From the IMG/VR virus record IMGVR_UViG_3300032331_004459, positions 1 through 25,023 of that record: 25,023 nt of DNA. One strand, 5' to 3'. The notes below the pieces were generated by a model. That model was not told the DNA's origin. It saw only the letters and a list, made by a program, of their open reading frames with translations, and did no database searches. Positions within the stretch are counted from its first letter, which is position 1; every line of letters begins with the position of its first letter. A program made the translations under genes and the position numbers. Positions 5,805 through 25,023 of the stretch are shown in pieces. The stretch comes from a virus.

Positions 5805-6542
5805 TTAAAAATCCGGACCGCCCCATTTGTCCACAGCATCAATAATGATACGAGGAACTGGTATCTGTTTTTCTATCAAATCCCTATAAAATGACATGGT
5901 GCCCTGTTTATGATTGGCTATTGCTTGCAAAATTATTTCTGGAACCACTCGATATTCCTTTTTCAAATAAATCAAAGCAATCTGAATGCTGTAAACAATG
6001 CTTTCTGTTAATTTTTTTAATGTGGACTCTGGAACTTTCTTGCCATTGTCCAAACGATCCTGGGCATAACTATATGCTGTGGCCATTTCTTGATTGATTG
6101 ATTTTAGTATAATGCCAGGAATCTCTGGAACATTCAAAGAATGATATTGCATCAATTTTTTAGATAATGCCGGATCGTTGCTGATGCCTTTGTATAATGA
6201 ATATAAAAATGCATTTTTATCTTTTATTAATTGCTTTAATTTCTCCATATGATGATGAACCAAAAACTCAAACAACTCATAGGCCATATTTTCATTTTCT
6301 TTCACTATTCTTTTAATAATAGGATGATTCAGCATCTGCCAATCCGCATATGCAATCATTTGTTCCAAAATTGGATGAATGTATATCGGATCTTCCAACA
6401 TCACATTCCACAAATCATCTGGTATGGGCCGTTTGTTTAGCCAAAGCTTTTCCAGCAATTTTCTTGCATAATACGGATTCTTTTTTATTTGATCATATAA
6501 ATTCTGCTTCACGTCCTCAATAAAGAACCGGTAGGTTTTCAC
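5805..6542 (-). CDS. Helical-repeat (alpha-solenoid) protein, paralogue A
   Basis: This is a 245-residue protein made of repeats of roughly 30 residues, each looking like two helices ending in '..G..VP..I'. Examples are KRPIPDDLWNVMLEDPIYI, GISNDPALSKKLMQYHSLNV and SINQEMATAYSYAQ followed by KKVPESTLKKL. It shares this repeat with the gene just upstream (6539-7285) and with 12087-13187. The start codon is GTG, overlapping the upstream stop as GTGA. I know no Pfam name for the repeat. A scaffold or protein-binding role is inferred only from the solenoid-like pattern. Confidence 0.7.
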   Translation of the reverse strand: MKTYRFFIEDVKQNLYDQIKKNPYYARKLLEKLWLNKRPIPDDLWNVMLEDPIYIHPILEQMIAYADWQMLNHPIIKRIVKENENMAYELFEFLVHHHMEKLKQLIKDKNAFLYSLYKGISNDPALSKKLMQYHSLNVPEIPGIILKSINQEMATAYSYAQDRLDNGKKVPESTLKKLTESIVYSIQIALIYLKKEYRVVPEIILQAIANHKQGTMSFYRDLIEKQIPVPRIIIDAVDKWGGPDF

Positions 6543-7285
6543 AAAAATGTTCCGCCCTTTCCTCCTCGTTTCTTTTTGTTTGCAACAGCATTTTGCAATT
6601 GTTTGCTGGTGCTAATGATTTGATGCAAACTGTCTGGTGCACTTAAATTTAAATTGCGGTAATGCTTTTCCAAATCGATTGCCAAATCAGGGCGACTTGC
6701 CAAACCTTTTATCAAAATTTCTGGAGCTTTCTTTTTGTCATATTTTATAATATAATATAAAAATCCATATGCCACTTCTGGATCACCTGCTATTCCATTC
6801 AATATGATTTCAGGAATAGGCACTGCTTTGGCCCTGCGTATGCTCACCTCTTTTCCATCCACATTTTTATGATACTGGCTTACATTGCTCATGCTCAAAT
6901 GACTTGCAAAACGTTCTGAAGTTTTTGGATCGTTGCTTATGCTTTGTAAAATAACTTCTGGTACTTTATCTCCTTTATCCACCACCAATTTGGCATATTG
7001 CTCGGATTTGGATGGTTGAAGGGCAATAACCTTTAGATATTTTTCTTCTGGTTCCACATCATTCATTTTCAAATTATATGCAAAAACAGTACTTTCAAAA
7101 GGAGAGGATAATATAACGTCCTGAATTTGTTGAGGCACAGGACGACCTCTTAATGCCAGCTTTGTTGCATAAATCAAACGATGATTTCGGCTGGTTTCTC
7201 CTGGTTCCAGCAATTTACCTAGATATTGCTGTTGAAAGCCACCTTCTTCACCCAACAATAGTTTTTTGTAAAAAGCAAATGTCAC
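6539..7285 (-). CDS. Helical-repeat (alpha-solenoid) protein, paralogue B
   Basis: This is a 248-residue protein starting at GTG (7285), with TGTAAATA five bases upstream. The repeat is clearest in its second half: VPEVILQSISNDPKTSERFA, then IPEIILNGIAGDPEVAYGFL, then APEILIKGLASRPDLAIDL. It ends in a basic, glycine-rich tail (KKKRGGKGGTFL). Neighbouring 5805-6542 has the same repeat and is translationally coupled. The function is unknown. Confidence 0.7.
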   Translation of the reverse strand: MTFAFYKKLLLGEEGGFQQQYLGKLLEPGETSRNHRLIYATKLALRGRPVPQQIQDVILSSPFESTVFAYNLKMNDVEPEEKYLKVIALQPSKSEQYAKLVVDKGDKVPEVILQSISNDPKTSERFASHLSMSNVSQYHKNVDGKEVSIRRAKAVPIPEIILNGIAGDPEVAYGFLYYIIKYDKKKAPEILIKGLASRPDLAIDLEKHYRNLNLSAPDSLHQIISTSKQLQNAVANKKKRGGKGGTFL

Positions 7286-7290
7286 CCAAT

Positions 7291-7298
7291 TATTTACA
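7291..7298 (-). promoter_or_regulatory. Late-promoter-like octamer TGTAAATA, five bases before GTG 7285
   Basis: The octamer differs from the T4 late consensus TATAAATA at one position. It is followed by ATTGG and then GTG. Confidence 0.45.
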
Positions 7299-7300
7299 AT

Positions 7301-7390
7301 TTACCAATGATGCAGAGCATTAACAATCAGCACAATATTTGCAATAACACCCAATATTACAATAAAGTATTCAAACAATTTTGGACTCAT
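7301..7390 (-). CDS. Very small membrane protein (29 residues)
   Basis: ATG at 7390 opens MSPKLFEYFIVILGVIANIV and continues to a TAA at 7301. Almost the whole peptide is one hydrophobic helix, ending NALHHW. It overlaps the end of the upstream gene by 20 bases in another frame and fills the gap before the GTG gene at 7285. It has no Shine-Dalgarno site. The composition argues for a real small membrane protein, but a 29-codon ORF could also arise by chance. Confidence 0.42.
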   Translation of the reverse strand: MSPKLFEYFIVILGVIANIVLIVNALHHW

Positions 7391-7562
7391 GTTTTTTCAA
7401 AAAATGATTTGCAGCTGCCAATGATTCAAATGTAACCAGCAATTTCTTTTTAATATTGATACGTTTTCCCTCTTCCAAAAGCACCTGCTGGGTTTGTTCA
7501 TATATACCCCATAACTGCATAAGATTTCCATATTCGTCTTTTATTTGTTCTATATGTTTCAT
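7371..7562 (-). CDS. Small hypothetical protein (63 residues), first gene of the leftward operon
   Basis: The product begins MKHIEQIKDEYGNLMQLWGI and is rich in charged helix residues, with a C-terminal LAAANHFLKKHESKIV. An AAGGAG site (7573-7578) lies ten bases before the ATG. A sigma70-like promoter lies a further 40 bases upstream, so it is the likely first gene of the operon. No family is recognised. Confidence 0.72.
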   Translation of the reverse strand: MKHIEQIKDEYGNLMQLWGIYEQTQQVLLEEGKRINIKKKLLVTFESLAAANHFLKKHESKIV

Positions 7563-7777
7563 TTTTAGGTTACTCCTTTATATCGTTGTTGAAAGTTTTT
7601 TTTATCATGATTATCGAATTGTATATGTTGTTGATGGTGTGTCAACAGTTGTATTTACTTTTTTACCATCACAAAAAAAATTTTTACGTGTTCAACTCTA
7701 AATAAAAATGTATCGAAAAAAATTCTTTCGAATCAAAAGAAAAAATATTGATTTGACGAATTGTGTGGTACAACTAA
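7563..7777. other. Divergent intergenic region between the leftward operon and nrdA
   Basis: No gene is seen. It holds the leftward sigma70-like promoter, an inverted repeat GTTGA/TCAAC around 7629-7645 overlapping its -35 box, and a TCGAAA/TTTCGA repeat around 7714-7734. For rightward nrdA I see neither a clear Shine-Dalgarno site nor the TATAAATA octamer. TTGACG near 7754 is the nearest promoter-like hexamer, but no -10 box lies at a sensible distance from it. Confidence 0.5.
7618..7645 (-). promoter_or_regulatory. Sigma70-like promoter of the leftward operon
   Basis: On the minus strand a perfect TTGACA (7640-7645) is followed after 16 bases by TACAAT (7618-7623). The inverted repeat GTTGA/TCAAC overlaps the -35 box and could bind a regulator. 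This is host-type early control, in contrast to the TATAAATA-type signals elsewhere in the window. Confidence 0.65.
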
Positions 7778-10051
7778 ATGACTACTCTATCCATGAAACA
7801 AATTCTCGTAAAGAAAAGAAACGGCAAGTCGGAAAAATTTGACCTGACCAAAATCACCAAGGTAATTGAATGGGCAATCAATGGTTATACAGGTGTCAGT
7901 CCCAGCGATATTGAAATCAATGCAAACATAAACTTTCATGATGGCATCAGTACCGAGGAAATTCACAAATTGATCATCGAAAGTGCTGCTAATCTTATCA
8001 GCGTTGAACATCCAAATTATCAGTTTGTGGCAGGACGTTTGCTAAATTATCAACTTCGAAAAGATGTTTGGGGAGGAAAACATCCACCCCGTTTGAAGGA
8101 TTTTATGCATGTCGGTGTAAAAAAGAAAATTTATGATCCGGTCATTCTGGAAAAATATAGTGATATTGAAATCAACAAAATCGGAGAAGATATCGATCAT
8201 GATCGGGATTATCTTTTCACGTATGCTGGCATCAAACAGCTTTGTGACAAATATCTGATCAAAGATCGGGTGAGTGGAGAAATCCACGAAACTCCCCAGT
8301 TTGCTTATATGCTGATCAGCATGACAGCATTTATGAATTATCCAGAAGAAACCCGAATGGAATATGTTCGAAGATTTTATAATGCAATCAGCAAGCACAA
8401 AATCAATTTGCCTACTCCAGTCATGGCTGGTGTTCGAACCACCAGTCGCAATTATGCCAGTTGCTGTCTCATAGGTGTGGATGACACCAAGGATAGCATA
8501 ACCAGCAGTGCCACTGCCGTCAGCATGGCCACTGCTAATCGTTGTGGTATTGGAATTGATGTGAGTCGCATTCGTGCAGCAGGTTCAGCTGTGAAGAATG
8601 GTGAAGTGGTTCATACCGGTCTTATTCCATTTTTGAAGATATATGAAGCCAGTGTGAAGGCATGGCAACAAAACGGTCTTCGGGGAGGAAGTGCCACATG
8701 CAACATTCAATGGTGGCATTATGAGATTGAAGATATTGTTGTTTTGAAAAACAATGCAGGAACAGATGACAATCGTGTTCGCAAATTGGATTATACAGTT
8801 GGCATGAGCAAAATGTTTTATGAAAGGGTACGCAACAATGAGGATGTGACACTTTTCAGTCCGCATGAAGTACCTGAACTTTTTGAAGCTTGGGGAACGG
8901 ACAGTTTTGATAAAGTTTACAAGGAATGTGAAAGTCGTCGATTAAAGATAAAAAAGAAGATCAATGCCAGAAAGCTTTTTGGTACGATTATAAAAGAACG
9001 GGTGGAAACAGGAAGAATTTATATTTTAAATGTGGATAATGCAAATGAACATGGTGCATGGCTGGACAAGATCACCATGAGCAATCTTTGTACAGAAGTC
9101 ATTCATCCCACCATTCCTATGCGGGATTATCATGATCCTGAAGCTGAAATAGGAATGTGTATTCTCAGTGCCATTAACATGCTGGAAATAAAAAACTGGA
9201 ATGAACTGGAAAGGGTTTGTGATTTGACTGTCAGATTTTTAGAGGAGGTTATTGATTTGCAGGATTACTTCAATATTGCTGCCAAGAACTTTGCAAGCAA
9301 ACGCCGGAGTCTTGGTATTGGAATTACCAATCTTGCTGCATTTCTGGCAAAGCATGAAGTGAATTATGATGATGAAAAAGCCATTCCTTTGTTGGATGAA
9401 TGGATGGAATATTTCCAATATTATCTTTTGAAAAGCAGCAACAAGCTGGCAGAAGAACGGGGTTCTTGTGAAAAGTTTAATCACACAAAATACAGCAAAG
9501 GAATATTGCCAATTGATACATTCAAAGACAGCATTAAAAGTTTGACTAAGCGTAAGCTTTCATGTGATTGGGATCGTTTGCGAAAAGACATAGAAAAATA
9601 CGGGTTGCGTCACAGTACACTCAGCAGTTGCATGCCGTGTGAAAGTAGTAGCGTGATACAATCCAGCACAAATGGTGTTGAACCTATTCGTTCATTAATC
9701 ACATATAAAATGAGCAAAATGGGAAAACTGCCTGTGCTTGTTCCTGGAATAGGAAAATATGAAAAGAATTATCAACTGGCTTATGATCTTAGGAGCAATA
9801 AAGGTTTGCTTAACATTAATGCAATTATTCAAAAATACATAGACATGGCCATAAGCACCAATGTTTATTACAATTACAGCCATTATGAAAATAATGTTCT
9901 TCCTGATGCAATAGTCATGAAGGAAATCATGTATGCTTACAGTCTTGGGTTAATCAGTCTTTATTATAACAATACAGATGACGGAGATAAAGAACAGTTG
10001 ATGAATCAAAAAGAAGACCGGGATTGTAGCAGCGGTGCTTGCAAATTATAA
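7778..10051 (+). CDS. nrdA: Ribonucleoside-diphosphate reductase, class Ia large subunit
   Basis: At 757 residues it has the normal NrdA length. An N-terminal ATP-cone (VKKRNGKSEKFDLTKITKVI) offers allosteric control of activity. The catalytic set is complete. Cys229 is in NYASCCLIGVDD, and Asn436, Cys438 and Glu440 are in SNLCTEV. Cys461 is in MCILSAIN, and the radical-transfer pair Tyr729-Tyr730 is in ISLYYNNTDDGD. The C-terminal redox pair Cys750/Cys755 is in DCSSGACKL. It reduces ribonucleoside diphosphates with NrdB to supply dNTPs for phage replication. nrdB follows 23 bases after the stop. No intron or intein interrupts the gene. Confidence 0.97.
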   Translation: MTTLSMKQILVKKRNGKSEKFDLTKITKVIEWAINGYTGVSPSDIEINANINFHDGISTEEIHKLIIESAANLISVEHPNYQFVAGRLLNYQLRKDVWGGKHPPRLKDFMHVGVKKKIYDPVILEKYSDIEINKIGEDIDHDRDYLFTYAGIKQLCDKYLIKDRVSGEIHETPQFAYMLISMTAFMNYPEETRMEYVRRFYNAISKHKINLPTPVMAGVRTTSRNYASCCLIGVDDTKDSITSSATAVSMATANRCGIGIDVSRIRAAGSAVKNGEVVHTGLIPFLKIYEASVKAWQQNGLRGGSATCNIQWWHYEIEDIVVLKNNAGTDDNRVRKLDYTVGMSKMFYERVRNNEDVTLFSPHEVPELFEAWGTDSFDKVYKECESRRLKIKKKINARKLFGTIIKERVETGRIYILNVDNANEHGAWLDKITMSNLCTEVIHPTIPMRDYHDPEAEIGMCILSAINMLEIKNWNELERVCDLTVRFLEEVIDLQDYFNIAAKNFASKRRSLGIGITNLAAFLAKHEVNYDDEKAIPLLDEWMEYFQYYLLKSSNKLAEERGSCEKFNHTKYSKGILPIDTFKDSIKSLTKRKLSCDWDRLRKDIEKYGLRHSTLSSCMPCESSSVIQSSTNGVEPIRSLITYKMSKMGKLPVLVPGIGKYEKNYQLAYDLRSNKGLLNINAIIQKYIDMAISTNVYYNYSHYENNVLPDAIVMKEIMYAYSLGLISLYYNNTDDGDKEQLMNQKEDRDCSSGACKL

Positions 10052-10060
10052 TCCTGCTGA

Positions 10061-10068
10061 TATAAATA
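10061..10068 (+). promoter_or_regulatory. TATAAATA octamer six bases before nrdB
   Basis: An exact match to the T4 late consensus. It lies in the 23-base gap between nrdA and nrdB and is followed by AAACCA and the ATG. There is no Shine-Dalgarno site in the gap. Confidence 0.5.
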
Positions 10069-10074
10069 AAACCA

Positions 10075-11139
10075 ATGAAAAGCGTTCTTAATCTTAAAAA
10101 TGTAGATACCACCAAGCAACCTTTGTTTCTTGGTGAAGATCTGAATTTGCAAAGATATGATCGTTTCAAATATCCCATATTTTTCGAATTGTTTAAAAAG
10201 CAAAATGAAAACTTTTGGTGGCCACATGAAATCACATTGGCCAAGGATCGTAGCGATTACAAGGATTTGACAGACACAGAACGTTTTGTTTTTGATAGCA
10301 ATCTAAGATTTCAAACACTAGGAGACAGCATGCTTTCCAGAAGTATCCATTCATTAAAGGAATATGTCAGCAATCCTGAATTGGAAATATGCATGAACAC
10401 ATGGGCGCAGTTTGAAGGAATACACAGTTATAGCTACAGTTATTTGCTCAATAATGTATATCCAGATCCAACTGAATTCTTTGACAGCATCATGGAAGAT
10501 AAGGAAATTGTATCCCGGGCTGAATTGATCCGGAATAATTTTGATAAAATTCTTGGTGATGATGATAAAAAAGATAATAAACAAAAAATATTTGATTGTA
10601 TTCTTTCAGTTAATGTAATGGAAGGTTTGGTATTCTATGTGAGCTTTGCTTGTAGCTTTTATTTTGGGTACAGGGGAAAAATGGAAGGTAATGCCAAAAT
10701 CATAAAGTTTATTCAACGAGACGAAGCTTTGCATTTCGGCGTTACCCAGAATCTTATTAAAATATTAAGGGATGAAGAAAAGGAAGGATTTACAAGTATT
10801 GTTAAAAAGAGTGAAGATAAAATTTATGCATTCTATGAACAGGCCGCAAAAAATGAAATGGAATGGGCAAATTATCTTTTCAGTAAAGGAAATCTTCTGG
10901 GTCTAAATGCTGAAGTTATCAGTGGATACAGCAAATGGCTTTGTGATAATCGTCTTCGTTCTATAGGATATAAAAAGATTTTTAATCAAAAAGAAAATCC
11001 ATTATCAGGTTGGTTGGATAGTTATATGGATAGCAGCAAGGTTCAAGTGGCCCCGCAAGAAACAGAAATCAGCAGCTACAAGGTTGGTGCCAGGAAAACA
11101 GATGTGAGCGATGACGATTTTGCAGATATTAAACTTTAA
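10075..11139 (+). CDS. nrdB: Ribonucleoside-diphosphate reductase, class Ia small (radical) subunit
   Basis: At 354 residues it is close to the usual NrdB length. The di-iron ligands are all visible: Asp84 (TLGDSML), Glu114 and His117 (QFEGIHSYSYSY), Glu183 (VNVMEGLVFYVSF), and Glu217 and His220 (RDEALHFG). The radical tyrosine is Tyr121, four residues after His117 as in E. coli NrdB, so this is a Tyr-radical class Ia enzyme. The C-terminal tail DDDFADIKL fits the peptide that docks on NrdA. It is cotranscribed with nrdA or read from its own TATAAATA signal. It is convergent with the leftward gene at 11149, with an AT-rich hairpin at the junction. Confidence 0.97.
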   Translation: MKSVLNLKNVDTTKQPLFLGEDLNLQRYDRFKYPIFFELFKKQNENFWWPHEITLAKDRSDYKDLTDTERFVFDSNLRFQTLGDSMLSRSIHSLKEYVSNPELEICMNTWAQFEGIHSYSYSYLLNNVYPDPTEFFDSIMEDKEIVSRAELIRNNFDKILGDDDKKDNKQKIFDCILSVNVMEGLVFYVSFACSFYFGYRGKMEGNAKIIKFIQRDEALHFGVTQNLIKILRDEEKEGFTSIVKKSEDKIYAFYEQAAKNEMEWANYLFSKGNLLGLNAEVISGYSKWLCDNRLRSIGYKKIFNQKENPLSGWLDSYMDSSKVQVAPQETEISSYKVGARKTDVSDDDFADIKL

Positions 11140-11157
11140 TATATAAAGTTATTTTAT
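11132..11157 (+). terminator. AT-rich hairpin terminator between convergent genes
   Basis: AACTTTA-ATATA-TAAAGTT followed by ATTTTATTATTCTTTTT. It overlaps the nrdB stop and the stop of the opposing gene. The stem has few G-C pairs, so efficiency is uncertain. Confidence 0.45.
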
Positions 11158-11337
11158 TATTCTTTTTGAATCAATTATAAAATCCAAAAAAAGATCATAT
11201 ATTTTATTCAAACAATAGTTTGATTTGATGCTGGCTTTGGCATCCCGGTCCACATCCTCAATGGTGGCACTAAAAGCGTTACTGTATTTTTTTATAAATT
11301 CTTTATATTCACTATCTGATTTTTTAAAAAAGCTCAT
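11149..11337 (-). CDS. Small hypothetical protein (62 residues)
   Basis: The product begins MSFFKKSDSEYKEFIKKYSN and ends with a helix (YDLFLDFIIDSKRIIK). Its start overlaps the stop of the gene upstream (11334-11540), so the two are probably co-translated. It is the last gene of the 14244-11149 leftward operon. No family is recognised. Confidence 0.62.
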   Translation of the reverse strand: MSFFKKSDSEYKEFIKKYSNAFSATIEDVDRDAKASIKSNYCLNKIYDLFLDFIIDSKRIIK

Positions 11338-11540
11338 TTTGTATTGAAGGTTTCAAGCATTTCTCCGAATGCTTTATTGAATTTCAGTATGCTTTGTTGA
11401 CCTTTTTCATAAGGTTCTTGGTAATATTTGTTTTTTAAAGAATTCAAATTGGGTTGTTCTTCCATAAGACGTTCCAAATATGATTGTAATAATAGAATCA
11501 CACCATAATCATAATTGTCATATTCAATTGTCTTCTTCAT
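11334..11540 (-). CDS. Small hypothetical protein (68 residues)
   Basis: The product begins MKKTIEYDNYDYGVILLLQS and is predicted to be mostly helical (YLERLMEEQPNLNSLKNKYY, QQSILKFNKAFGEMLETF). Its ATG overlaps the stop of the upstream HNH gene as ATGA, and its own stop overlaps the next start. This tight packing supports translation of all three. The function is unknown. Confidence 0.65.
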   Translation of the reverse strand: MKKTIEYDNYDYGVILLLQSYLERLMEEQPNLNSLKNKYYQEPYEKGQQSILKFNKAFGEMLETFNTK

Positions 11541-12046
11541 TTTTTTATTTTATTAAAACAGTCTCTGGGCATTTTAAACATGCGCAAAGCTTTATTATAA
11601 GCTATATATGCTTCTTTTCTGGTGATAAAACATCCCAGATGATATTTTTTCCTATTAATTTGTATTTGGGATATCCAAATACCTTTTGATTTGTGAAAAT
11701 GTGCTCCTCTTTGTTTTTTTCTATTAATGTTTTGTAAAGTTTTATTAGCAATTCTTAAATTTTTTAATCGATTATCAGATCTATTTCCATTAATATGATC
11801 AATCGTATAAGGCAAACGAGGAAGAAATCCATGCATCATATAAAATGCTACATGATGCGTTTGATAGTTTTGACCACAAACTTTAATGGTTGAATAACCA
11901 GAAGAATTCAATGTCTTAATAGGATACATTATTTTATTATTAAAAAAATTACATATACGACAAATTTTACCTGTATCGGGATTATAAAAATAATTGTTTA
12001 ACAAATAATCCCGATCCACATTCTTTTCCAAAGATAGTCTTTTCAC
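11537..12046 (-). CDS. HNH endonuclease with AP2-like domain (third copy)
   Basis: The frame stays open to a TTG at 12070. I prefer the GTG at 12046 because AAGG lies three to four bases before it; the product is then 169 residues, starting MKRLSLEKNVDRDYLLNNYF. The HNH core is YTIDHINGNRSDNRLKNLR (about residues 80-98). An AP2-like segment follows (about 114-160), with GIWISQIQINRKKYHLGCF and RKEAYIAYNKAL. It is probably a homing-type endonuclease inserted in the operon. The spacing to the upstream gene is about 40 bases, whereas the downstream gene is coupled. Confidence 0.87.
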   Translation of the reverse strand: MKRLSLEKNVDRDYLLNNYFYNPDTGKICRICNFFNNKIMYPIKTLNSSGYSTIKVCGQNYQTHHVAFYMMHGFLPRLPYTIDHINGNRSDNRLKNLRIANKTLQNINRKKQRGAHFHKSKGIWISQIQINRKKYHLGCFITRKEAYIAYNKALRMFKMPRDCFNKIKK

Positions 12047-12086
12047 AACCCTTATTTTACAGGTTGCCAAGGAAAATCAATTTATT

Positions 12087-13187
12087 TTAAATACTTTCTT
12101 TGTCGTATTTGTCAGCACTATCCTGAATTTTTTTATAAATGCTGGGAAGTGTTTTTCCACCTTTTATCATTTTATATCGGGCAGTAAATGCATATGATGC
12201 AGTGCCATTTTTGGCAATTGTATCTATAATTTCCTGTGGAATCTGTTTATTTTGAGACAAAAGCATATTACTGACAATAACAAGAGAGCTTGGATTGGTT
12301 AATTGAAGCACATCTTTTCCAGGCAATTCACCAGTGGAATTCACATAGGCCATAACATATTTTGACGCATTTTCAGATCTTTCTGCATCAACGCTTTTAT
12401 AAGTAGATATTTTTCCTTTTACAATTCCATTCTCCAGGATGTCCAGAATTTTTTTATCTTTTTCGTGTATTTTTATAAATTTTATTCCATATGATGCTGC
12501 GAGAGATGAATCTCTTGCCAATGAATTTATTATTTCCAAAGGAGCAACCTTTTGTGCTGCATCAAGTATACCATTAGCAAAATTAAAACTTTGATCCTTA
12601 TCTTTTTTTATAATATCTAATATTTTTTGTGAAACCTTTCCATCATTGGAGACTACTATTGTTGCATATTCGGTAGCAGCTACAGGAAATTGGGCAAATG
12701 AATCTTCTACACTAGCAGGAATTGGTCTTTCGTTTTGAGCTAGAACCTTTACATATCGAAGGGAATAATTCGGATCGTTTAGAATTTTTTGCAACAATTG
12801 TTTTTTAATGATAGGTTCGTTTGATTGTTCTTCATCTTCATCAAATGATAATCCTGCAAATGGTGATTTTTGTATGCTTTTTAAAACCCTGTCGGGTATT
12901 TGTTGATTATGTTTTTTATAATATTTTGCAATATAATATGAATTTTTAGGATTTGTAACAATTTTATTCAACAATAGTTCAGGCACAGATTGGCCCACCA
13001 AAATGTAATCACCCATGGCCAATTCCAAAGCAAAATTAGATCCTGCCACAGGTTCACTAACAATTGATTTCAGAATAATATCCGGAACTGATTTTCCTTG
13101 GGAACGCATGCGTCGGGCAAAACGCATGGCCACATAAGGATCTTTTGCTATGCTATCAAGCAGATCCTGTTGTGTATCATTTTTCAT
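12087..13187 (-). CDS. Helical-repeat (alpha-solenoid) protein, paralogue C
   Basis: At 366 residues this is the longest of three paralogues. At least seven units of about 29-32 residues can be lined up, for example LLDSIAKDPYVAMRFARRM, then SVPDIILKSIVSEPVAGSNF, then SVPELLLNKIVTNPKNSYYI, then IPDRVLKSIQKSPFAG, then LLQKILNDPNYSLRYVKVL. The consensus is 'hhxxIxxDPxxAxxYAxxh....xxVPxxI'. The start overlaps the end of the upstream WC-domain gene by 11 bases, so the two are translationally coupled and may act together. No known family name or function is assigned. Confidence 0.72.
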   Translation of the reverse strand: MKNDTQQDLLDSIAKDPYVAMRFARRMRSQGKSVPDIILKSIVSEPVAGSNFALELAMGDYILVGQSVPELLLNKIVTNPKNSYYIAKYYKKHNQQIPDRVLKSIQKSPFAGLSFDEDEEQSNEPIIKKQLLQKILNDPNYSLRYVKVLAQNERPIPASVEDSFAQFPVAATEYATIVVSNDGKVSQKILDIIKKDKDQSFNFANGILDAAQKVAPLEIINSLARDSSLAASYGIKFIKIHEKDKKILDILENGIVKGKISTYKSVDAERSENASKYVMAYVNSTGELPGKDVLQLTNPSSLVIVSNMLLSQNKQIPQEIIDTIAKNGTASYAFTARYKMIKGGKTLPSIYKKIQDSADKYDKESI

Positions 13188-14244
13188 CTTTTTCTATCAA
13201 ATCGTCCAAATAAAGAAAATATTGGAATGCAGCTTCAGCACTTTTTTGAATTTGTTTTTCAAAAACCTTTTTTTCATTTTCTTTAAGATCCTGAAATATT
13301 TTCGAATCAAAATCTTCAACAACCTTCAAATATTCATTGCGAAGATTTTTATCAAGAGTTTTCCACGCATCAAAAGGAAGTTTAGCACCACCTTGTTGTA
13401 TGAATTCTTCTTTTTCAGGATATTTCAAACTGTTGAAAGTATTTGCATCAAAGTCATTCGCCAATTCATTAAATTTTTCGATTTTGCTTTTTTCGTCCCG
13501 AGTTAAAGGTTTTGCAGTTATAATTTTGTCAAAAGCAGGTTTCAATTCTGGAAATTCTTTGATTGCCTGTTCTTTGGTAACTCTTGTTGTTCCATGACCC
13601 TGACTACCATTATCTGCCCATGTCCAGTTATATTCACCTTTAGGCAAAGCATCAATGACCATCAAATGTGCAGGATCAATATAATCATTATTCTTTTTTT
13701 CATCAGTGCGTTTTTTCAAACGAACAAAATAAAAACTGGATTGATCTCTTAAACGATAACTCGAATAAAGATTTCCTGATCCGGGACGGCTGATACAAAA
13801 ACTATAATTGCTTCCTAGTTTTACACATTTGGCCCGATTCTCTGCACCAAAAACTTTGATGTTTTCGTCCTCGTAAAGAGGTTTCTCCGCATCACCAACC
13901 TCTTCAGGCATGGAAAGATTGACCTTTGTTTCCATTGCATCAATTGCATGTTCCATTTCGCTGAATGATTTGAAACGAGTTATGTCTTCTATACGGTTAC
14001 GCTTTTTCAGTTCCAAAAACTTTTTATAATATTCGGATAAGACATCCAAATTTTGTGTTTCATTAAAGAATTTTGCCAATTTAAGAACATGTCCTTTGCT
14101 TGTTGTTTTATCCATTTCAAGCAGTTTGGCCGCTATCTTTTCATTTTTATTCTGTAAAAGGTTAAGAATATTTTCCAACGTAACCTTCTCTGTCAGAGTA
14201 AGATATTTTTCAAAAATAAGTTGCTGATCACGACCAAAAGGCAT
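13177..14244 (-). CDS. WC-domain protein (smaller form), function unknown
   Basis: This is a 355-residue protein. The N-terminal ~120 residues are helical (ENILNLLQNKNEKIAAKLLE, LAKFFNETQNLDVLSEYYKK). Then comes a compact domain with KVFGAENRAKCVKLGSNYSF, Cys150 in FCIS, the tyrosines Tyr160/Tyr163 in LYSSYR, and the strand SSFYFVRLKK. This order (Cys-x-Ser/Thr, a short loop, paired tyrosines, then a hydrophobic strand) recurs in the 16267-17970 protein. The C-terminal third is charged and helical. The ATG is preceded by TATAAATA-GTTGT with no Shine-Dalgarno site. It is the first gene of its operon. Confidence 0.65.
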   Translation of the reverse strand: MPFGRDQQLIFEKYLTLTEKVTLENILNLLQNKNEKIAAKLLEMDKTTSKGHVLKLAKFFNETQNLDVLSEYYKKFLELKKRNRIEDITRFKSFSEMEHAIDAMETKVNLSMPEEVGDAEKPLYEDENIKVFGAENRAKCVKLGSNYSFCISRPGSGNLYSSYRLRDQSSFYFVRLKKRTDEKKNNDYIDPAHLMVIDALPKGEYNWTWADNGSQGHGTTRVTKEQAIKEFPELKPAFDKIITAKPLTRDEKSKIEKFNELANDFDANTFNSLKYPEKEEFIQQGGAKLPFDAWKTLDKNLRNEYLKVVEDFDSKIFQDLKENEKKVFEKQIQKSAEAAFQYFLYLDDLIEKDEK

Positions 14245-14310: not shown

Positions 14311-14688
14311 ATGCTGAATAACGAAATTGATCTTATTTTGGAAAAATATAAGACAGTTAAAGCTACTGATGAAGATGCTATTGATGTAAAAAAATCCGAT
14401 TTAAACAAAGACGGAAAACTTAGCGATTATGAAATTGCCAGGGGAAAAGCCATAGATAAAGCCACTGGCGGTGATGGAAAGCTTGCAGACGAATCTGAAG
14501 AAACCAAAACAGAAAAAGCTCCTGATTTATTGTCAAAACAAAAAAAGAGATTGGATAGTTTTGAAAAATATAAACTTAGCCAAGCCAAACGTTATTTAAA
14601 AAATATAAAAACTTTTAACAAAATAATGAGTCATATGAGCGGAATCAACGAAAAAGATGCTCGTAAATGTATTAAAAAATACAGTTGA
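14311..14688 (+). CDS. EF-hand calcium-binding protein
   Basis: This is a 125-residue protein with one canonical EF-hand loop at residues 30-41 (DLNKDGKLSDYE). Ligands are at loop positions 1 (Asp30), 3 (Asn32), 5 (Asp34) and 12 (Glu41), with Gly35 at position 6. It is followed by ARGKAIDKATGG, a pattern I associate with small EF-hand proteins of marine and other phages. The second half is lysine-rich and helical (KKRLDSFEKYKLSQAKRYLK). It would bind one calcium ion; the role in the phage is unknown, perhaps structural. Confidence 0.75.
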   Translation: MLNNEIDLILEKYKTVKATDEDAIDVKKSDLNKDGKLSDYEIARGKAIDKATGGDGKLADESEETKTEKAPDLLSKQKKRLDSFEKYKLSQAKRYLKNIKTFNKIMSHMSGINEKDARKCIKKYS

Positions 14689-16263: not shown

Positions 16264-16271
16264 TATTTAAT
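16264..16271 (-). promoter_or_regulatory. Late-type variant ATTAAATA nine bases before ATG 16254
   Basis: It matches TATAAATA at six of eight positions. It sits over the stop of the upstream gene. Confidence 0.28.
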
Positions 16272-17970
16272 GTTTATCTACCTTTTTAATAATATCATCC
16301 GCAATTTGTTTACGATCAATATTTTGCGAAACAAAATCTATGAAGTTATTCTTTTCTTCTTCAATTTGATCATTGGAAACATCTGGTATCAATTGCCCAA
16401 GTTTTGCATAGTATGAAGGGTTTTCCAATATATTGAAAAAGGTCGCGGTGTCACCTTCTTCAAAAACATCAAGAAGAGAATCGAAAGGAATGATCAATTG
16501 ATTCTTTCTTCCTTTTTTATTGAAAATAATTCCTCGGCTTTTAAAAGTATCAAGCACTGTATTTTTCAAATATTGAGATGCCGTTTTTTTGATATGGCTA
16601 TTCAAAACATTTCTGCAAATACTATAAAATTCATCAGATGATTCTGGATTTTCACCAATATCCGAAAACACTCGTTCTGTATTTTGTTTTTGTTTTGGAC
16701 TTAAAATACTGTTTAAAACAAACGGAACCATTTCTTGATCTTCGTTGCCATCAAAAAATACACTGACAGGGTTGTAAAGAAATCCCTGAATTACCCTGTT
16801 AATTCCATAATTGTAAAAATCTTCAAGAAATTCATCTGTTTCATTTTTGATTATTGTCAATTCCAATCCTTCATCTGTGAATATTGCCTGGTTATCAAAA
16901 GCTTTTGAAAGAATACCTAATCCTTTGTTTAATCTTCCCAGATCCAATTGTCCTTGAACAACCATGGTGATAATGTTTCGAGCAGAAAGATTCTGGAAAA
17001 ATTCATCTGGTTCTTTATCCAGTATATCCAATCCACCTGTTAACAATTTTGCTTTTCTCAAATCGTTTTCATCCGGATCTGTTTTTTCATAATCATCCAA
17101 TATGACTTTTCCTATGACAGGATGATTGCTAAAAAATTCAAAAACATCAATAGATCGATCATCCGAGTCCATGTATTGACCACTGGGAAAATGAAATTGA
17201 TATTTGGTCAATTCACCTTTGTTTTTGATGAATACAATATAAAGAGGACCGTCCTTGGTATATGAATCATAATATGTATTATTATCACTTCGAGCAGCCG
17301 TACACCAACGGGTATTGTTTCCTAGACTTTGTGATGCCGAAAGTGTCAAAGGAACACCTACGAAATATTGGCTATTATCCAAAAGAATTCGCACTTTGCT
17401 TTTGTCTTTAATATCTTCTTCCTGATGTTTTGGAATGAAAGGTTTGATGATATAAAAAAGAGTATTGAAATCAGGAACTTGATTGATATCTCGCACATTC
17501 TTTTTATTCAAGGATACCTTGTTTTTGTTTTTGTCGTAAATTTTCAGATCGCTGTTTAGTTTGTAGAGATCTTCATTCATGAAACGACGAATATGATTGA
17601 TGGTTTTTCCTGCGCCTTCACCTTTTTCATCAAACTTTTTCAAAAATGTTTTAAGAATCCATTCACTATATTGACCGGCATAACCCGCACCCTTTTCAAT
17701 ATCAACTTTACTGAAAGGATCTGCTCCTATCAGATTGTCTATGGTTTCACTCAGAAATTCCAGATAAGTTTTGTATTTGGGATTTGTTTCTGTTCCTTTT
17801 TTGAAGTCTTCATAATTGCTGGGCAGATTGCTTTCTTCTGGCCATATGTGCAAAAGCTTGGCGTAAAATAATGGAAGATATTTGTTTTTTAAGAATTCCA
17901 AACGATCCACATTTTCCCGCAATATGTTTCGCTCATAGCTTTCCTTTATATTTTGTAAATCCCCACGCAT
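16267..17970 (-). CDS. Large WC-domain protein, function unknown
   Basis: This is a 567-residue protein. The N-terminal ~190 residues are helical (NVDRLEFLKNKYLPLFYAKL). The central domain (about 195-290) has VRILLDNSQYFVGVPLT, Trp222-Cys223-Thr in RWCTAARS, Tyr233/Tyr234/Tyr237 in TYYDSYTKDGPLYIVF, KYQFHF, and YMDSDDRSIDVFEFFSNHPV. It shares the layout of this domain with the 13177-14244 protein. The pattern (Cys, tyrosines, then strands ending in an aromatic) superficially recalls the PcfJ-type domain, but I cannot establish homology. The C-terminal half is helical. TATAAATA lies nine bases before the ATG. Confidence 0.68.
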   Translation of the reverse strand: MRGDLQNIKESYERNILRENVDRLEFLKNKYLPLFYAKLLHIWPEESNLPSNYEDFKKGTETNPKYKTYLEFLSETIDNLIGADPFSKVDIEKGAGYAGQYSEWILKTFLKKFDEKGEGAGKTINHIRRFMNEDLYKLNSDLKIYDKNKNKVSLNKKNVRDINQVPDFNTLFYIIKPFIPKHQEEDIKDKSKVRILLDNSQYFVGVPLTLSASQSLGNNTRWCTAARSDNNTYYDSYTKDGPLYIVFIKNKGELTKYQFHFPSGQYMDSDDRSIDVFEFFSNHPVIGKVILDDYEKTDPDENDLRKAKLLTGGLDILDKEPDEFFQNLSARNIITMVVQGQLDLGRLNKGLGILSKAFDNQAIFTDEGLELTIIKNETDEFLEDFYNYGINRVIQGFLYNPVSVFFDGNEDQEMVPFVLNSILSPKQKQNTERVFSDIGENPESSDEFYSICRNVLNSHIKKTASQYLKNTVLDTFKSRGIIFNKKGRKNQLIIPFDSLLDVFEEGDTATFFNILENPSYYAKLGQLIPDVSNDQIEEEKNNFIDFVSQNIDRKQIADDIIKKVDKH

Positions 17971-21127: not shown

Positions 21128-22450
21128 ATGCCTATTACTCTTGCATTATCTGGTGCAAAAATGGCCCGGGATCTGGGCGTTACCCGTGATTTTTTATCAT
21201 CTAACGTAGCTGCAACCAGCAAGATACAACAAGTAGCTAGTGACCGATTTTTGGGTCGTAATATGTCAGCAGGCACTGGCAACTCACAACAAGTACAACC
21301 TTGGTATGATGTACAGGTTCCAGATTGGACAACTGGGGCACATATAACCAACTGGAGTACTTTGCAATATTATCTGAGCAGTGTGGCCGCAACAAATAAC
21401 AAATCAAACACCGACATAACTTTGCGATATTTTGGACCACAAATAACACCCAGTTTGGGTAATGGTGCACTTTACGCAGGAGTGTTGGCTCCTAACGGAA
21501 AAATATATTATCCAGGAACTAACAGCAGTATATTCTGTGTGTTAGACCCAAATACTGAAACATTTTCCACTTATGCTGGATTTGCTGGAGTTGTTGGAGA
21601 ATCATATGGAGGTGTATTGGCTCCCAACGGAAAAATATATTGCACACCCGGAAATAGTTCACTTCTTAAAGTCATTGATCCTTCCAACAATACAGTAACT
21701 GTTATAAACAGCACTTTTCCAAAAGGACCAGATAATACTAATGTTTATTACATTGGATATCAAGGAGGTGTTCTTGCTCCGAATGGTAAAATTTATTTCA
21801 TACCTAATTGGATAAACAGCAATACCAGCACAAGAAACACTATTATGCGGGTTGTGGATCCCACCAATGATACTGTTTCCAGCATAAATGGTGTGTACGG
21901 TGGTCATATATCAGGTTGTGTGGCTCCTAATGGTAAAATCTATTGTGCTCCAACCAATTATAGCGTCATAAGCATCATAGATCCTTCCACGTCAACTGTG
22001 AGCAGTATTTTTGCACCAGGCACAAGTGGAACAGGATTTGCATTAGCTCCTAATGGAAAATTATATAGCATATCATCTGTTACTGGTAATAGTTTTCTGG
22101 TGGTGAATCCTGCCACAGACACATGTACAACTTATCCTGCTGTTGTGGGTTATATTGGACAAGTGTTGGGTCCGGATGGAAGAATATATGGAGTAAATTA
22201 TAATGCATCAACTGGAACATTTGTTGGTATAATTGATCCAGACACAGACACATTCACGACCCTTTCCAATGTGGGAATCAGCATGGTAAATGCCAGCTAT
22301 ACAACTGGGTTGCTTCATCCTAATGGAAAAATTTATTTTGGACCTCATGTTTCTGCATCATCGTCTCTCCCGTTTTTAAGTTTAAATTTTAATACAAACA
22401 ATAATTTTAATAAAAACGTTTGCGTTAGTCCATTTTATAACAAAGCTTAA
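21128..22450 (+). CDS. Tail-fibre adhesin with seven-bladed beta-propeller, copy 1
   Basis: This is a 440-residue protein. The N-terminal ~50 residues (GAKMARDLGVTRDFL, SKIQQVASDRFLGRNMSAGT) match the 'VTT.KI..I....LGR.S.GTG' attachment segment common in phage fibres. A linker with VPDWTTG and LRYFGPQ follows. Seven repeats come next, each of the type 'GVLAPNGKIYxxP...V..IDP..NTV'; later ones drift to ALAPNGKLYSIS, VLGPDGRIYGVN and LLHPNGKIYFGP. Seven units fit one closed propeller. The end is NNNFNKNVCVSPFYNKA. It probably binds a host surface receptor. The propeller type is read from repeat count only. Confidence 0.78.
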   Translation: MPITLALSGAKMARDLGVTRDFLSSNVAATSKIQQVASDRFLGRNMSAGTGNSQQVQPWYDVQVPDWTTGAHITNWSTLQYYLSSVAATNNKSNTDITLRYFGPQITPSLGNGALYAGVLAPNGKIYYPGTNSSIFCVLDPNTETFSTYAGFAGVVGESYGGVLAPNGKIYCTPGNSSLLKVIDPSNNTVTVINSTFPKGPDNTNVYYIGYQGGVLAPNGKIYFIPNWINSNTSTRNTIMRVVDPTNDTVSSINGVYGGHISGCVAPNGKIYCAPTNYSVISIIDPSTSTVSSIFAPGTSGTGFALAPNGKLYSISSVTGNSFLVVNPATDTCTTYPAVVGYIGQVLGPDGRIYGVNYNASTGTFVGIIDPDTDTFTTLSNVGISMVNASYTTGLLHPNGKIYFGPHVSASSSLPFLSLNFNTNNNFNKNVCVSPFYNKA

Positions 22451-22456
22451 TAAGTA
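22449..22456 (+). promoter_or_regulatory. Weak late-type octamer AATAAGTA five bases before ATG 22462
   Basis: It matches TATAAATA at six positions, with spacer ATTTT. Confidence 0.3.
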
Positions 22457-22461
22457 ATTTT

Positions 22462-22620
22462 ATGCATATAACCCCCGAATTATCCGCTGCTAAGATGAGA
22501 CGCAATTTAGGTGTAACCACCGTAAAATTCGCGAATATTAGTGTCACCACTGATAATATACAATTAAATAATAATTGGAATTTAAACGTAGCCACAAACC
22601 CCAATTTCAATAAAAATTAA
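22462..22620 (+). CDS. Miniature fibre ORF (52 residues) lacking the propeller
   Basis: It begins HITPELSAAKMRRNLGVTTV and KFANISVTTDNIQ, nearly the same as the start of the gene at 23936; by eye about 14 bases differ in the first ~100. It then passes directly to an Asn-rich end (NNNWNLN..NFNKN) reminiscent of the Asn-rich C-terminal region of the propeller genes. The propeller body is missing. It could be a remnant of an internally deleted copy or a working short protein. It has its own octamer five bases upstream, and the frame is intact. Confidence 0.6.
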   Translation: MHITPELSAAKMRRNLGVTTVKFANISVTTDNIQLNNNWNLNVATNPNFNKN

Positions 22621-22623
22621 ATA
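22616..22623 (+). promoter_or_regulatory. Late-type variant ATTAAATA five bases before ATG 22629
   Basis: It matches six positions, with spacer AAAAC. It overlaps the stop of the miniature ORF. Confidence 0.35.
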
Positions 22624-22628
22624 AAAAC

Positions 22629-23927
22629 ATGAGCAACGCAACAGATCTGGCAAAAATGGCACGAGATAACGGAATAGAAACCCGTAAACTCGCGGATAAT
22701 TCTTTTAGCACCGACAAAATTTTTCAAATAGGGCAAGGAGAATTTATAGGCCGGAATAATCTGCAAACTGGAAATGGAAACGTAACCCCTACACAAAGCT
22801 TTCCAGATATTAGTCTGACCAGTCCTCTGAGCGCACCCTTCAATGCTACCACAGCATGGAGCAGTTTGAGTGCATATATTAATCAGGTTGTTGCTACGAA
22901 TACAAGTCCAGCCACTGCAGTTTATTTTGAATATTTTGGTAGTTTTTCTGGTACTCAATCTCTTAATGGTGGTGTATTGGCTCCTAATGGAAATATATAT
23001 TGTGCTCCTTATGATGGAAATGTTTGTGTCATTATAAATCCAAATAATAACACAACAAGTACATTTGGTTCTTTCCCTGCTGCATTTGTAGGAGGAAATA
23101 AATATAGTGGTGGTGTATGTGCTCCTAACGGAAAAATATATTTTACTCCTGGAAGAAATAGTATTGCAGTTGTAATAGATCCATCAAATAATACTGTAAC
23201 AAATTTTGGAACTTTGCCTCCTGCGGTAGCATCAGATAATTATGTTACAAGTGTCGTTGCACCCAACGGAAAAATATATATGATTCCTTATGATGCAACC
23301 GTGTTTGCTTATATTGATCCATCAAACAATAGCGTAACAACATTTGGAAATGCACCAGCTACCGGAAATAAATTTGCAACAGGTGTTTTGGCTCCTAATG
23401 GAAAAATTTATTGCATTCCTAGAAATTTAACTGTTGTATATATTATTGATCCAAGTAATAATACAGTTTCTAGTTTTGGAACTTTTATAAACTTAGCAGA
23501 CAGTTATGGAGCAGCTGTATTGGCACCTAACGGAAAAATTTATTGCATTCCTACAGCTACCACAATATGCACTTTAATAGATCCGAATAATAACACAATA
23601 ACAACATTTGGAAATTTTTCAGCGAGTGGCGGTACTCTTAAGTTTGGTGGTGGAACTTTAATGTCTAATGGCAAAATACTCTGTGTACCTTATTACGCAA
23701 CATTAGCTTCTGTAATTGATCCGTCAAATAATACAATTTTAACTTTTGGATCATTTGCTGGAGGATCCACACCTACAAATGCAGATTATATAGGAGGTAT
23801 ACAGGCTCCGAATGGAAAAATATATCTGATTCCTCATAATGCATCACAAGCATTAGCATTGATTCCTCAAGTAAATAATAATTTTAATATAAATTTTTGT
23901 CTTAGTCCTTTCTATAACAGAAGTTAA
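22629..23927 (+). CDS. Tail-fibre adhesin with seven-bladed beta-propeller, copy 2
   Basis: This is a 432-residue protein. The N-terminal segment (AKMARDNGIETRKLADNSFS, TDKIFQIGQGEFIGR) corresponds to the attachment segment of its neighbours. Seven regular repeats follow, such as VLAPNGNIYCAPYDG, VCAPNGKIYFTPGRN, VVAPNGKIYMIPYDA and VLAPNGKIYCIPRNL, separated by IDPSNNTVTTFG-type strands. The sixth drifts to TLMSNGKILCVPYYA. The end is NNNFNINFCLSPFYNRS, matching copy 1. Repeats here are the most uniform of the three copies, which may reflect recent repeat exchange. The product is a likely receptor-binding fibre. Confidence 0.78.
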   Translation: MSNATDLAKMARDNGIETRKLADNSFSTDKIFQIGQGEFIGRNNLQTGNGNVTPTQSFPDISLTSPLSAPFNATTAWSSLSAYINQVVATNTSPATAVYFEYFGSFSGTQSLNGGVLAPNGNIYCAPYDGNVCVIINPNNNTTSTFGSFPAAFVGGNKYSGGVCAPNGKIYFTPGRNSIAVVIDPSNNTVTNFGTLPPAVASDNYVTSVVAPNGKIYMIPYDATVFAYIDPSNNSVTTFGNAPATGNKFATGVLAPNGKIYCIPRNLTVVYIIDPSNNTVSSFGTFINLADSYGAAVLAPNGKIYCIPTATTICTLIDPNNNTITTFGNFSASGGTLKFGGGTLMSNGKILCVPYYATLASVIDPSNNTILTFGSFAGGSTPTNADYIGGIQAPNGKIYLIPHNASQALALIPQVNNNFNINFCLSPFYNRS

Positions 23928-23930
23928 ATA
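23923..23930 (+). promoter_or_regulatory. Late-type variant GTTAAATA five bases before ATG 23936
   Basis: Identical octamer to the one before the ATPase gene at 18172, with the same five-base spacing (ATTTT). Confidence 0.38.
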
Positions 23931-23935
23931 ATTTT

Positions 23936-25023
23936 ATGCCAATAACCCCCGCACTTTCCGCTGCCAAGATGAGACGCAATTTAGGTGTACCCACCGTCAA
24001 ATTGGCGAATAATAGCGTCACAACCGATAAGATTCAGCAATTACAGGACAGCCGTTTTCTGGGTCGTACCAGCAGCGGAACAGGAAATGCAGAACAGGTA
24101 AACCAGTTTCTACACATGCAAGTTCCGGGTTGGACAAATGGTGCATCATATACAAATTTTTCAAGCATAAGTTCACACATTAAAGGTTTGCAATTAAGCA
24201 ATAAAAATATTTCTATTAGTGCCGCAACATTTGAAATTTATGGTTCTGGTGCATTTCCAGGAACAAGTGCATTTACTGGTGGAACAATTGCACCGAATGG
24301 AAAAATATATCTTGCACCTTATACGGCTACAGTTGGTTATGTTATAAATCCTTCAGATAATACCATAGGTACGTTTGGACCTATTCAAGCAAATGCTAGT
24401 GGGAAATATCAAGGAAGTGTGTTGGCACCTAACGGTAAAATATATTGTATTCCTGATGGTAATACAGCTGTAGCAATATTGGATCCAAGTAATAATACAG
24501 TCTCAAGCATAATAGGACCTGTAGGATCCGACAAATGTGCAGGAGGTGCATTAGGTTCAAGCGGAAAAATATATTGTTTTCCTACAAATATTAATAATTT
24601 TATATTTGTTATAAATCCCGCGAATGACACAATCAGTAGCATTTCATTGCCATCAACAGGAGGATATGCTCGAGCAATTACATTACGAAATGGAAGAGTA
24701 TTTAGCTCTCCTATTCCAGGATACGGAATAACTTTGATGCGGGTTGTTGATCCTTCTGATGATAGTGTCAGCAGTTATGCCATAACAGATACTTCCTTAA
24801 TTGCAGGTTCCTTTACATCTGAACAAGCACAAAATGGAAAAATACTACTTGTTCCTAGTAATGGTAATGTAATAGGTGTCATTGATCCCGATAATAATTT
24901 TGCAATAAGCACTTATTCAACTGGAGGATTGAATGGTTGCCAACATCCAACAAAATTAGCTAATGGAAAAATTTTCACAACATCTGGTTCTCAAACATTG
25001 ATTGCTTGGATCGATCCAGATGA
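23936..25023 (+). CDS. Tail-fibre adhesin with beta-propeller, copy 3, cut by the right edge
   Basis: The frame is open from ATG 23936 to the last base, 362 codons without a stop. The N-terminus (PITPALSAAKMRRNLGVPTV, VTTDKIQQLQDSRFLGRTSS) is the clearest version of the attachment segment. The linker has VPGWTNG and FEIYGSG. Six repeats are visible, from TIAPNGKIYLAPYT and VLAPNGKIYCIPDG to more divergent ones (LRNGRVFSSP, QNGKILLVP, LANGKIFTTS). A seventh blade and the conserved C-terminal tail would be expected just outside the window. The product is a likely receptor-binding fibre. Confidence 0.78.
   Translation, partial: MPITPALSAAKMRRNLGVPTVKLANNSVTTDKIQQLQDSRFLGRTSSGTGNAEQVNQFLHMQVPGWTNGASYTNFSSISSHIKGLQLSNKNISISAATFEIYGSGAFPGTSAFTGGTIAPNGKIYLAPYTATVGYVINPSDNTIGTFGPIQANASGKYQGSVLAPNGKIYCIPDGNTAVAILDPSNNTVSSIIGPVGSDKCAGGALGSSGKIYCFPTNINNFIFVINPANDTISSISLPSTGGYARAITLRNGRVFSSPIPGYGITLMRVVDPSDDSVSSYAITDTSLIAGSFTSEQAQNGKILLVPSNGNVIGVIDPDNNFAISTYSTGGLNGCQHPTKLANGKIFTTSGSQTLIAWIDPD

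Follow-up and report, generated by a model that had tools for sequence, protein, structure and literature searches.

The internal proteins (IPs) of phage T4 are among the closest described counterparts of the locus considered here. IPI, IPII and IPIII begin with a capsid-targeting sequence (CTS) of 10-19 residues, which targets them to the prohead core and is cleaved after the motif L/I-X-E (PMC9026906). Targeting of IPIII is ruled by residues 4 and 7 and its processing by residues 8 and 10; an aspartate at position 10 allows targeting but inhibits processing (PMC9026906). The use of diverse, CTS-tagged, injected proteins is an established strategy of T4 (PMC3012670; PMC9026906). The present locus lies in a 25,023-nucleotide stretch of viral DNA, hereafter the window (IMG/VR record IMGVR_UViG_3300032331_004459, positions 1 to 25,023), and encodes three alpha-solenoid repeat proteins, R1, R2 and R3, and two WC-domain proteins, WC1 and WC2. 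Judged from sequence, R1-R3 may be virion-borne binding scaffolds that, together with the WC proteins, work like the T4 IPs, a reading to which we give slightly less than an even chance. Both sets have diverse bodies behind a short conserved N-terminus, the N-terminal peptide of R1 resembles the CTS of IPII and IPIII, and relatives of the WC proteins are encoded near T4-type head genes. The T4 IPs are, however, small proteins with E10, whereas the R and WC proteins have alpha-solenoid or WC bodies of 245-567 residues and R1 has D10.

A family of alpha-solenoid repeat proteins

The three repeat genes are as follows (E values are for a hidden Markov model, HMM, of the unit).

5805..6542, minus strand: R1, 245-residue alpha-solenoid repeat protein with a GTG start within the GTGA of R2 (E=1e-31)
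6539..7285, minus strand: R2, 248-residue alpha-solenoid repeat protein, leading the R2-R1 pair (E=6e-35)
12087..13187, minus strand: R3, 366-residue alpha-solenoid of about 9-10 units (E=7e-49)

The original prediction took these proteins for paralogues built from one repeat that matches no named family, and both parts are borne out. R1, R2 and R3 share a 29-residue unit with the consensus DPKEAYRYAKLLVSNNKEVPEIILKSIAK (units of two further lineages added) and a common unit HMM. Smith-Waterman comparison against 300 shuffles gave z scores of 7.0 for R1-R2, 10.0 for R1-R3 and 12.7 for R2-R3, no shuffle scoring as high, and about 0 in the control comparison of R with WC proteins. Leave-family-out unit HMMs recovered R1 (3e-10), the R1 orthologue (2e-14), R2 (1e-9) and R3 (1e-7), the best WC score in the same small set being 0.01-0.3. 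The predicted unit length of about 30 residues agrees with autocorrelation peaks at 29 and 58-63, although the period is not strict, because several units carry insertions, and only about three units are clear in R1, all of them in its C-terminal half (residues 152-239). R1 is conserved in the contigs L006, L023 and L027.

Pfam and PHROGs contain no family matching R1-R3. Named phages, plasmids and bacterial genomes were searched by tblastn and exact DNA patterns only. In tblastn the phage and plasmid collections gave no real match to R3, R2, the repeat protein of L044 (see below; phages and plasmids) or another paralogue from that contig, the sole hit of R2 having E=4. None of the three contigs matched by DNA pattern in bacterial genomes scored with the unit HMM. 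The repeat family is thus real and without a name in curated families, and the anatomy of R1-R3 is confirmed.

Structure prediction, which had been proposed as a check, was run on R3. The AlphaFold2 model is a continuous alpha-solenoid of 23 helices (mean predicted local distance difference test score, pLDDT, 82; predicted template modelling score, pTM, 0.64). Foldseek with the solenoid model found no match at E<=0.001, and fold searches of solved and viral structures with R3 returned generic solenoids alone and no close relative. The overall superhelix is like that of HEAT/ARM solenoids such as the PP2A scaffold subunit and importin alpha; VIA-align against these families gave Z of about 7-9.5 at a root mean square deviation of 5-12 A, values common among helical repeats, so kinship with HEAT/ARM is not shown by them. 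DUF4116 (PF13475) also forms short helical repeats in large-phage proteins, but its unit sequence differs; it was rejected as the identity of the repeat since R1-R3 have no hit to its Pfam model and hhalign against a DUF4116 protein gave a probability of 0.1%.

WC proteins and gene coupling

The WC genes are on the same strand as the repeat genes.

13177..14244, minus strand: WC1, 355-residue WC-domain protein with the N-terminus MPFGRDQQLIFEKYLTLTE and an 11-base overlap with R3
13510..13902, minus strand: WC-domain region of WC1, residues 115-245
16267..17970, minus strand: WC2, 567-residue WC-domain protein with the N-terminus MRGDLQNIKESYERNILRE (phrog_17056, E=3e-7)
17092..17430, minus strand: WC-domain region of WC2, residues 181-293, containing TRWCTA

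The name 'WC domain' comes from the original prediction. WC1 and WC2 fit this phrog_17056-like class by a shared profile around a W/F-C motif. The WC HMM finds WC1 at E=1e-22, WC1 being in its training set; the only support for WC1 independent of the WC model is a single-sequence match (E=8e-14) to a protein of the 595-kb phage LR756511. WC2 matches a relative, gp205 of phage PA5oct, at E=7e-13. The structure model of WC2 (pLDDT 58) was too poor for a fold search.

Both couplings noticed at the outset are present: the stop of R2 overlaps the start of R1 in GTGA, and WC1 overlaps R3 by the 11 bases 13177-13187. The sister contig L006 has all five genes in an unchanged arrangement and keeps both overlaps. 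The suggestion that repeat and WC proteins work as a pair is supported in part. The coupling is conserved, and WC domains are fused to solenoids of other classes: gp45 of Salicola phage SCTP-2 joins a WC domain to DUF4116 units, the gene L043:6593-8836 combines a WC motif (CKARWCTA, by eye) with a helical tail that has an LRV_2 hit below the Pfam cut-off, and in the LR756511 relative of WC1 the long C-terminal region weakly resembles a helical domain, MgtE_N, at a score below cut-off. Solenoid and WC modules therefore travel together in general, but outside the window's own lineage the R1-R3 class of repeat was not found next to a WC domain.

N-terminal peptides

The likeness to T4 is clearest at the start of R1.

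6513..6542, minus strand: R1 codons 1-10, MKTYRFFIED, identical at 6/10 positions to the CTS of T4 IPII and IPIII, including Y4, F7 and I8

The T4 record has MKTYQEFIAE in both IPII and IPIII. Among 432 N-termini ranked by CTS similarity R1 comes first, scoring 26; its orthologue (MKTYRFFLED) scores 24 and the next unrelated gene 15. Position 10 of R1 is D, so there is no L/I-X-E at the position used in IPIII. R2, WC1 and WC2 have an L/I-x-E near the start (LGE13, within LLLGE, IFE12 and IKE10, respectively), and this is all they share with the T4 tags. The motif lies within 22 residues of the start in 21 of 27 repeat and WC proteins, against 63 of the 291 other genes used as controls (Fisher p=7e-9), and a stricter motif is found in 16 of the 27 against 6 of the 291; the p-values overstate the evidence because the stricter motif was post hoc and many of the 27 targets are paralogues or orthologues of one another. 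These counts support packaging, though not conclusively.

Distribution of the repeat

When the viral collection was surveyed with a degenerate DNA pattern and by HMM scanning, only three lineages proved to carry the repeat: the window group (L006, L023, L027 and L040), L044/L032, and L035. L044 (IMGVR_UViG_3300002220_000764) encodes five tandem, coupled paralogues at L044:10001-14934, two of which carry the unit (E of 6e-30 and 1e-17 with a window-only model) and score more strongly once their own units are built into the model. An hhalign match between A7 and an L044 paralogue was circular, A7 including L044 relatives, and was discarded. The L044 paralogues have near-identical N-termini, conserved C-termini and very different middles, and look as if recombination had swapped central repeat modules. 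All canonical L044 repeat proteins begin with the CTS-like MR[IL]FKNL[VM]E[SD]. They differ from R1-R3 in a conserved C-terminal domain of about 80 residues, which R1-R3 lack, and, in some members, a second repeat type (FPAGEPAI); one member passes from the R1-R3 type of repeat into another kind (SIPATACNYAVEVIKDRFPAGEEAI).

In L035 (IMGVR_UViG_3300013126_000066) the repeat gene is a single open reading frame (ORF) of 233 residues under translation table 4, with the start MKKIENYILNQLFE, near a terminase, a portal-like gene and an ART-PolyVal protein. Table 4 is needed for the terminase, the long portal-like frame (by inspection) and several other L035 genes to open fully, and TGA appears to be read as Trp in this virus.

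Genomic context of the WC relatives

In LR756511 the 15 kb upstream of the WC1 relative contain genes for the portal, a head maturation protease of T4 type and the major head protein. The protease, of the gp21 type (phrog_207, E=3.5e-46), precedes the T4-type major head protein, and the WC1 relative begins about 3.4 kb after the latter; between them is a protein with the CTS-like start MLTWTEFLEAR (phrog_1017; NADAR-like by inspection). In L043 a head-closure Hc2 gene comes before the WC genes and a baseplate wedge gene after them. PA5oct gp205, which lies downstream of the tail sheath, carries the annotation 'structural protein, ESI-MS/MS' (electrospray ionization tandem mass spectrometry).

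Sequence evolution

Compared with L006, amino acid identity is 61% for R1, 75% for R2, 67% for R3, 88% for WC1 and 85% for WC2. The ratios of nonsynonymous to synonymous substitution rates (dN/dS), rough because some dS values are >1, are 0.25, 0.31 and 0.46 for R1, R2 and R3, 0.20 for WC1, 0.12 for WC2, and 0.065-0.136 for NrdA, NrdB, NUDIX, AAA and a gene for a 125-residue protein. Within the unit, positions 16 and 18, in the inter-helix loop, vary most, and P20 and I23 are invariant. Positive selection on R1-R3 was rejected, gene-wide dN/dS being <0.5. R1-R3 evolve faster than their neighbours yet are constrained, which fits changing binding loops without proving them. The earlier idea that duplicated repeats vary their binding surface is thus weakly supported: the ratios exceed those of the neighbours and the loop positions change, but every ratio is <1.

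A possible route into the virion, and its alternatives

We infer packaging, cleavage, injection and the nature of the bound target from the observations above, in the following form. A large, probably T4-like phage would make R1-R3 and the WC proteins together and carry them in the virion, most likely in the head. CTS-like peptides, clearest in R1 and represented by the L/I-x-E starts of R2, WC1 and WC2, would load the proteins into the prohead core, and the untagged R3 would enter bound to WC1, its translationally coupled partner. At infection the proteins would pass into the host along with the DNA, and host proteins would there be bound by the faces of the solenoids, after the manner of the diverse IPs of T4.

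Several points weigh against this route. R3 has neither a CTS-like start nor L/I-X-E, and in T4 the aspartate found at position 10 of R1 permits targeting yet inhibits processing; with R3 untagged, R1 missing the residue needed for processing and the proteins known from their genes, membership of the T4 CTS-tagged class is not established. The strict motif was written after the sequences had been read, six controls fit it too, and the 27 targets amount to about seven independent lineages. By eye, no such starts are seen in DUF4116 proteins from podoviruses, a Herelleviridae phage or Atu_ph07, so being a solenoid does not in itself make a protein packaging cargo. The 'structural' label of PA5oct gp205 names neither head nor tail, and the protein has been proposed as a depolymerase (PMC6950013). 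The window itself is a 25-kb IMG/VR fragment without head genes, and the T4-like status of its phage is drawn from relatives.

The alternative that survives best, though we think it unlikely, is that the solenoid and WC proteins, made during infection, act as cytoplasmic adaptors, binding factors of the host or the phage, and never enter the virion, the CTS resemblance being coincidental or having another role. The untagged R3, the tagless solenoid proteins of other phages, a repeat known here from genes alone and the position of the R genes amid genes of nucleotide metabolism (NrdA, NrdB and NUDIX) would all suit it. The first rank of R1 among the N-termini, the motif enrichment, and the placing of WC relatives in head and neck modules, one of them annotated as detected by mass spectrometry, speak for the virion instead.

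Lower again in probability, and distinctly doubtful, is a role within the head itself, as scaffold-core or inner-body structural proteins that go into the prohead to shape or fill the head and are not injected effectors. The N-terminal signals would serve such proteins equally well, and T4 IPIII does influence head assembly (PMC9026906), but the fast evolution of R1-R3 and paralogue arrays with variable middles are better suited to cargo. That these are structural or enzymatic proteins of the tail or baseplate, with WC a hydrolase-like domain, is improbable: the place of gp205 after the tail sheath, that of the L043 WC genes between neck and baseplate genes and the suggestion, at 66.5% model confidence, that gp205 is a glycosidase favour it, but the contexts in LR756511 and L035 are head genes and the suggested fold is of low confidence.

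Other features of the window

A gene diverging from WC1, and boxes before four start codons, are listed here.

14311..14688, plus strand: 125-residue protein with the N-terminus MLNNEIDLILEKY, an EF-hand/dockerin-like DLNKDGKLSDYE motif and weak similarity to Dockerin_1
7291..7296, minus strand: TAAATA box, 5 nucleotides before the R2 start, conserved in L006
14250..14257, minus strand: TATAAATA box, 5 nucleotides before the WC1 start, conserved in L006
14298..14305, plus strand: TATAAATA box, 5 nucleotides before the gene for the 125-residue protein, conserved in L006
17980..17987, minus strand: TATAAATA box, 9 nucleotides before the WC2 start, conserved in L006

The 125-residue protein is possibly a further member of the R and WC set. 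TAAATA or TATAAATA stands 5-9 nucleotides before the start codon in 10 of the 29 window genes (another example is at 10061-10068), where 0.25 would be expected from window frequency and 2.3 with shuffled upstream letters; a Shine-Dalgarno-like core is present at only three. The boxes of WC1, WC2, R2 and two other genes are kept in L006. Whether they are promoters for leaderless mRNAs or a start signal not of the Shine-Dalgarno type is a question they raise. A T4 late promoter was rejected for TATAAATA, 5-9 nucleotides being too short for promoter and leader, and for the same reason late expression is not claimed.

Between R3 and NrdB (11149-12070) the window has two small ORFs and a gene for an HNH endonuclease (11537-12070); in L006 the gap is only about 270 bases, which suggests an insertion or a loss. 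From 21128 to 25023, in a putative tail-fibre region, a repeat of the form 'LAPNGKIYxxP...VIDPSNNTVTTFG' makes up two proteins in full and what seems to be a third, which runs to the window end.

Implications for giant phages

Giant-phage proteins mostly have no assigned role. It is conceivable, and we hold it tentatively, that several lineages of giant T4-like phages possess a modular cargo system, in which a CTS-like tag is joined to interchangeable bodies, expanded as tandem paralogues, and the products are packaged into heads and injected to bind varied host targets. Such bodies would be the WC domain, alpha-solenoid repeats of several kinds and ART/NADAR-type enzymes. Should a short N-terminal motif label cargo packaged in the heads of T4-like giant phages, sequence alone could sort many unknown proteins into those delivered into the host and those that are not, every delivered protein would become a candidate anti-defence or takeover factor, and solenoid repeats would offer a natural route to new binding targets.

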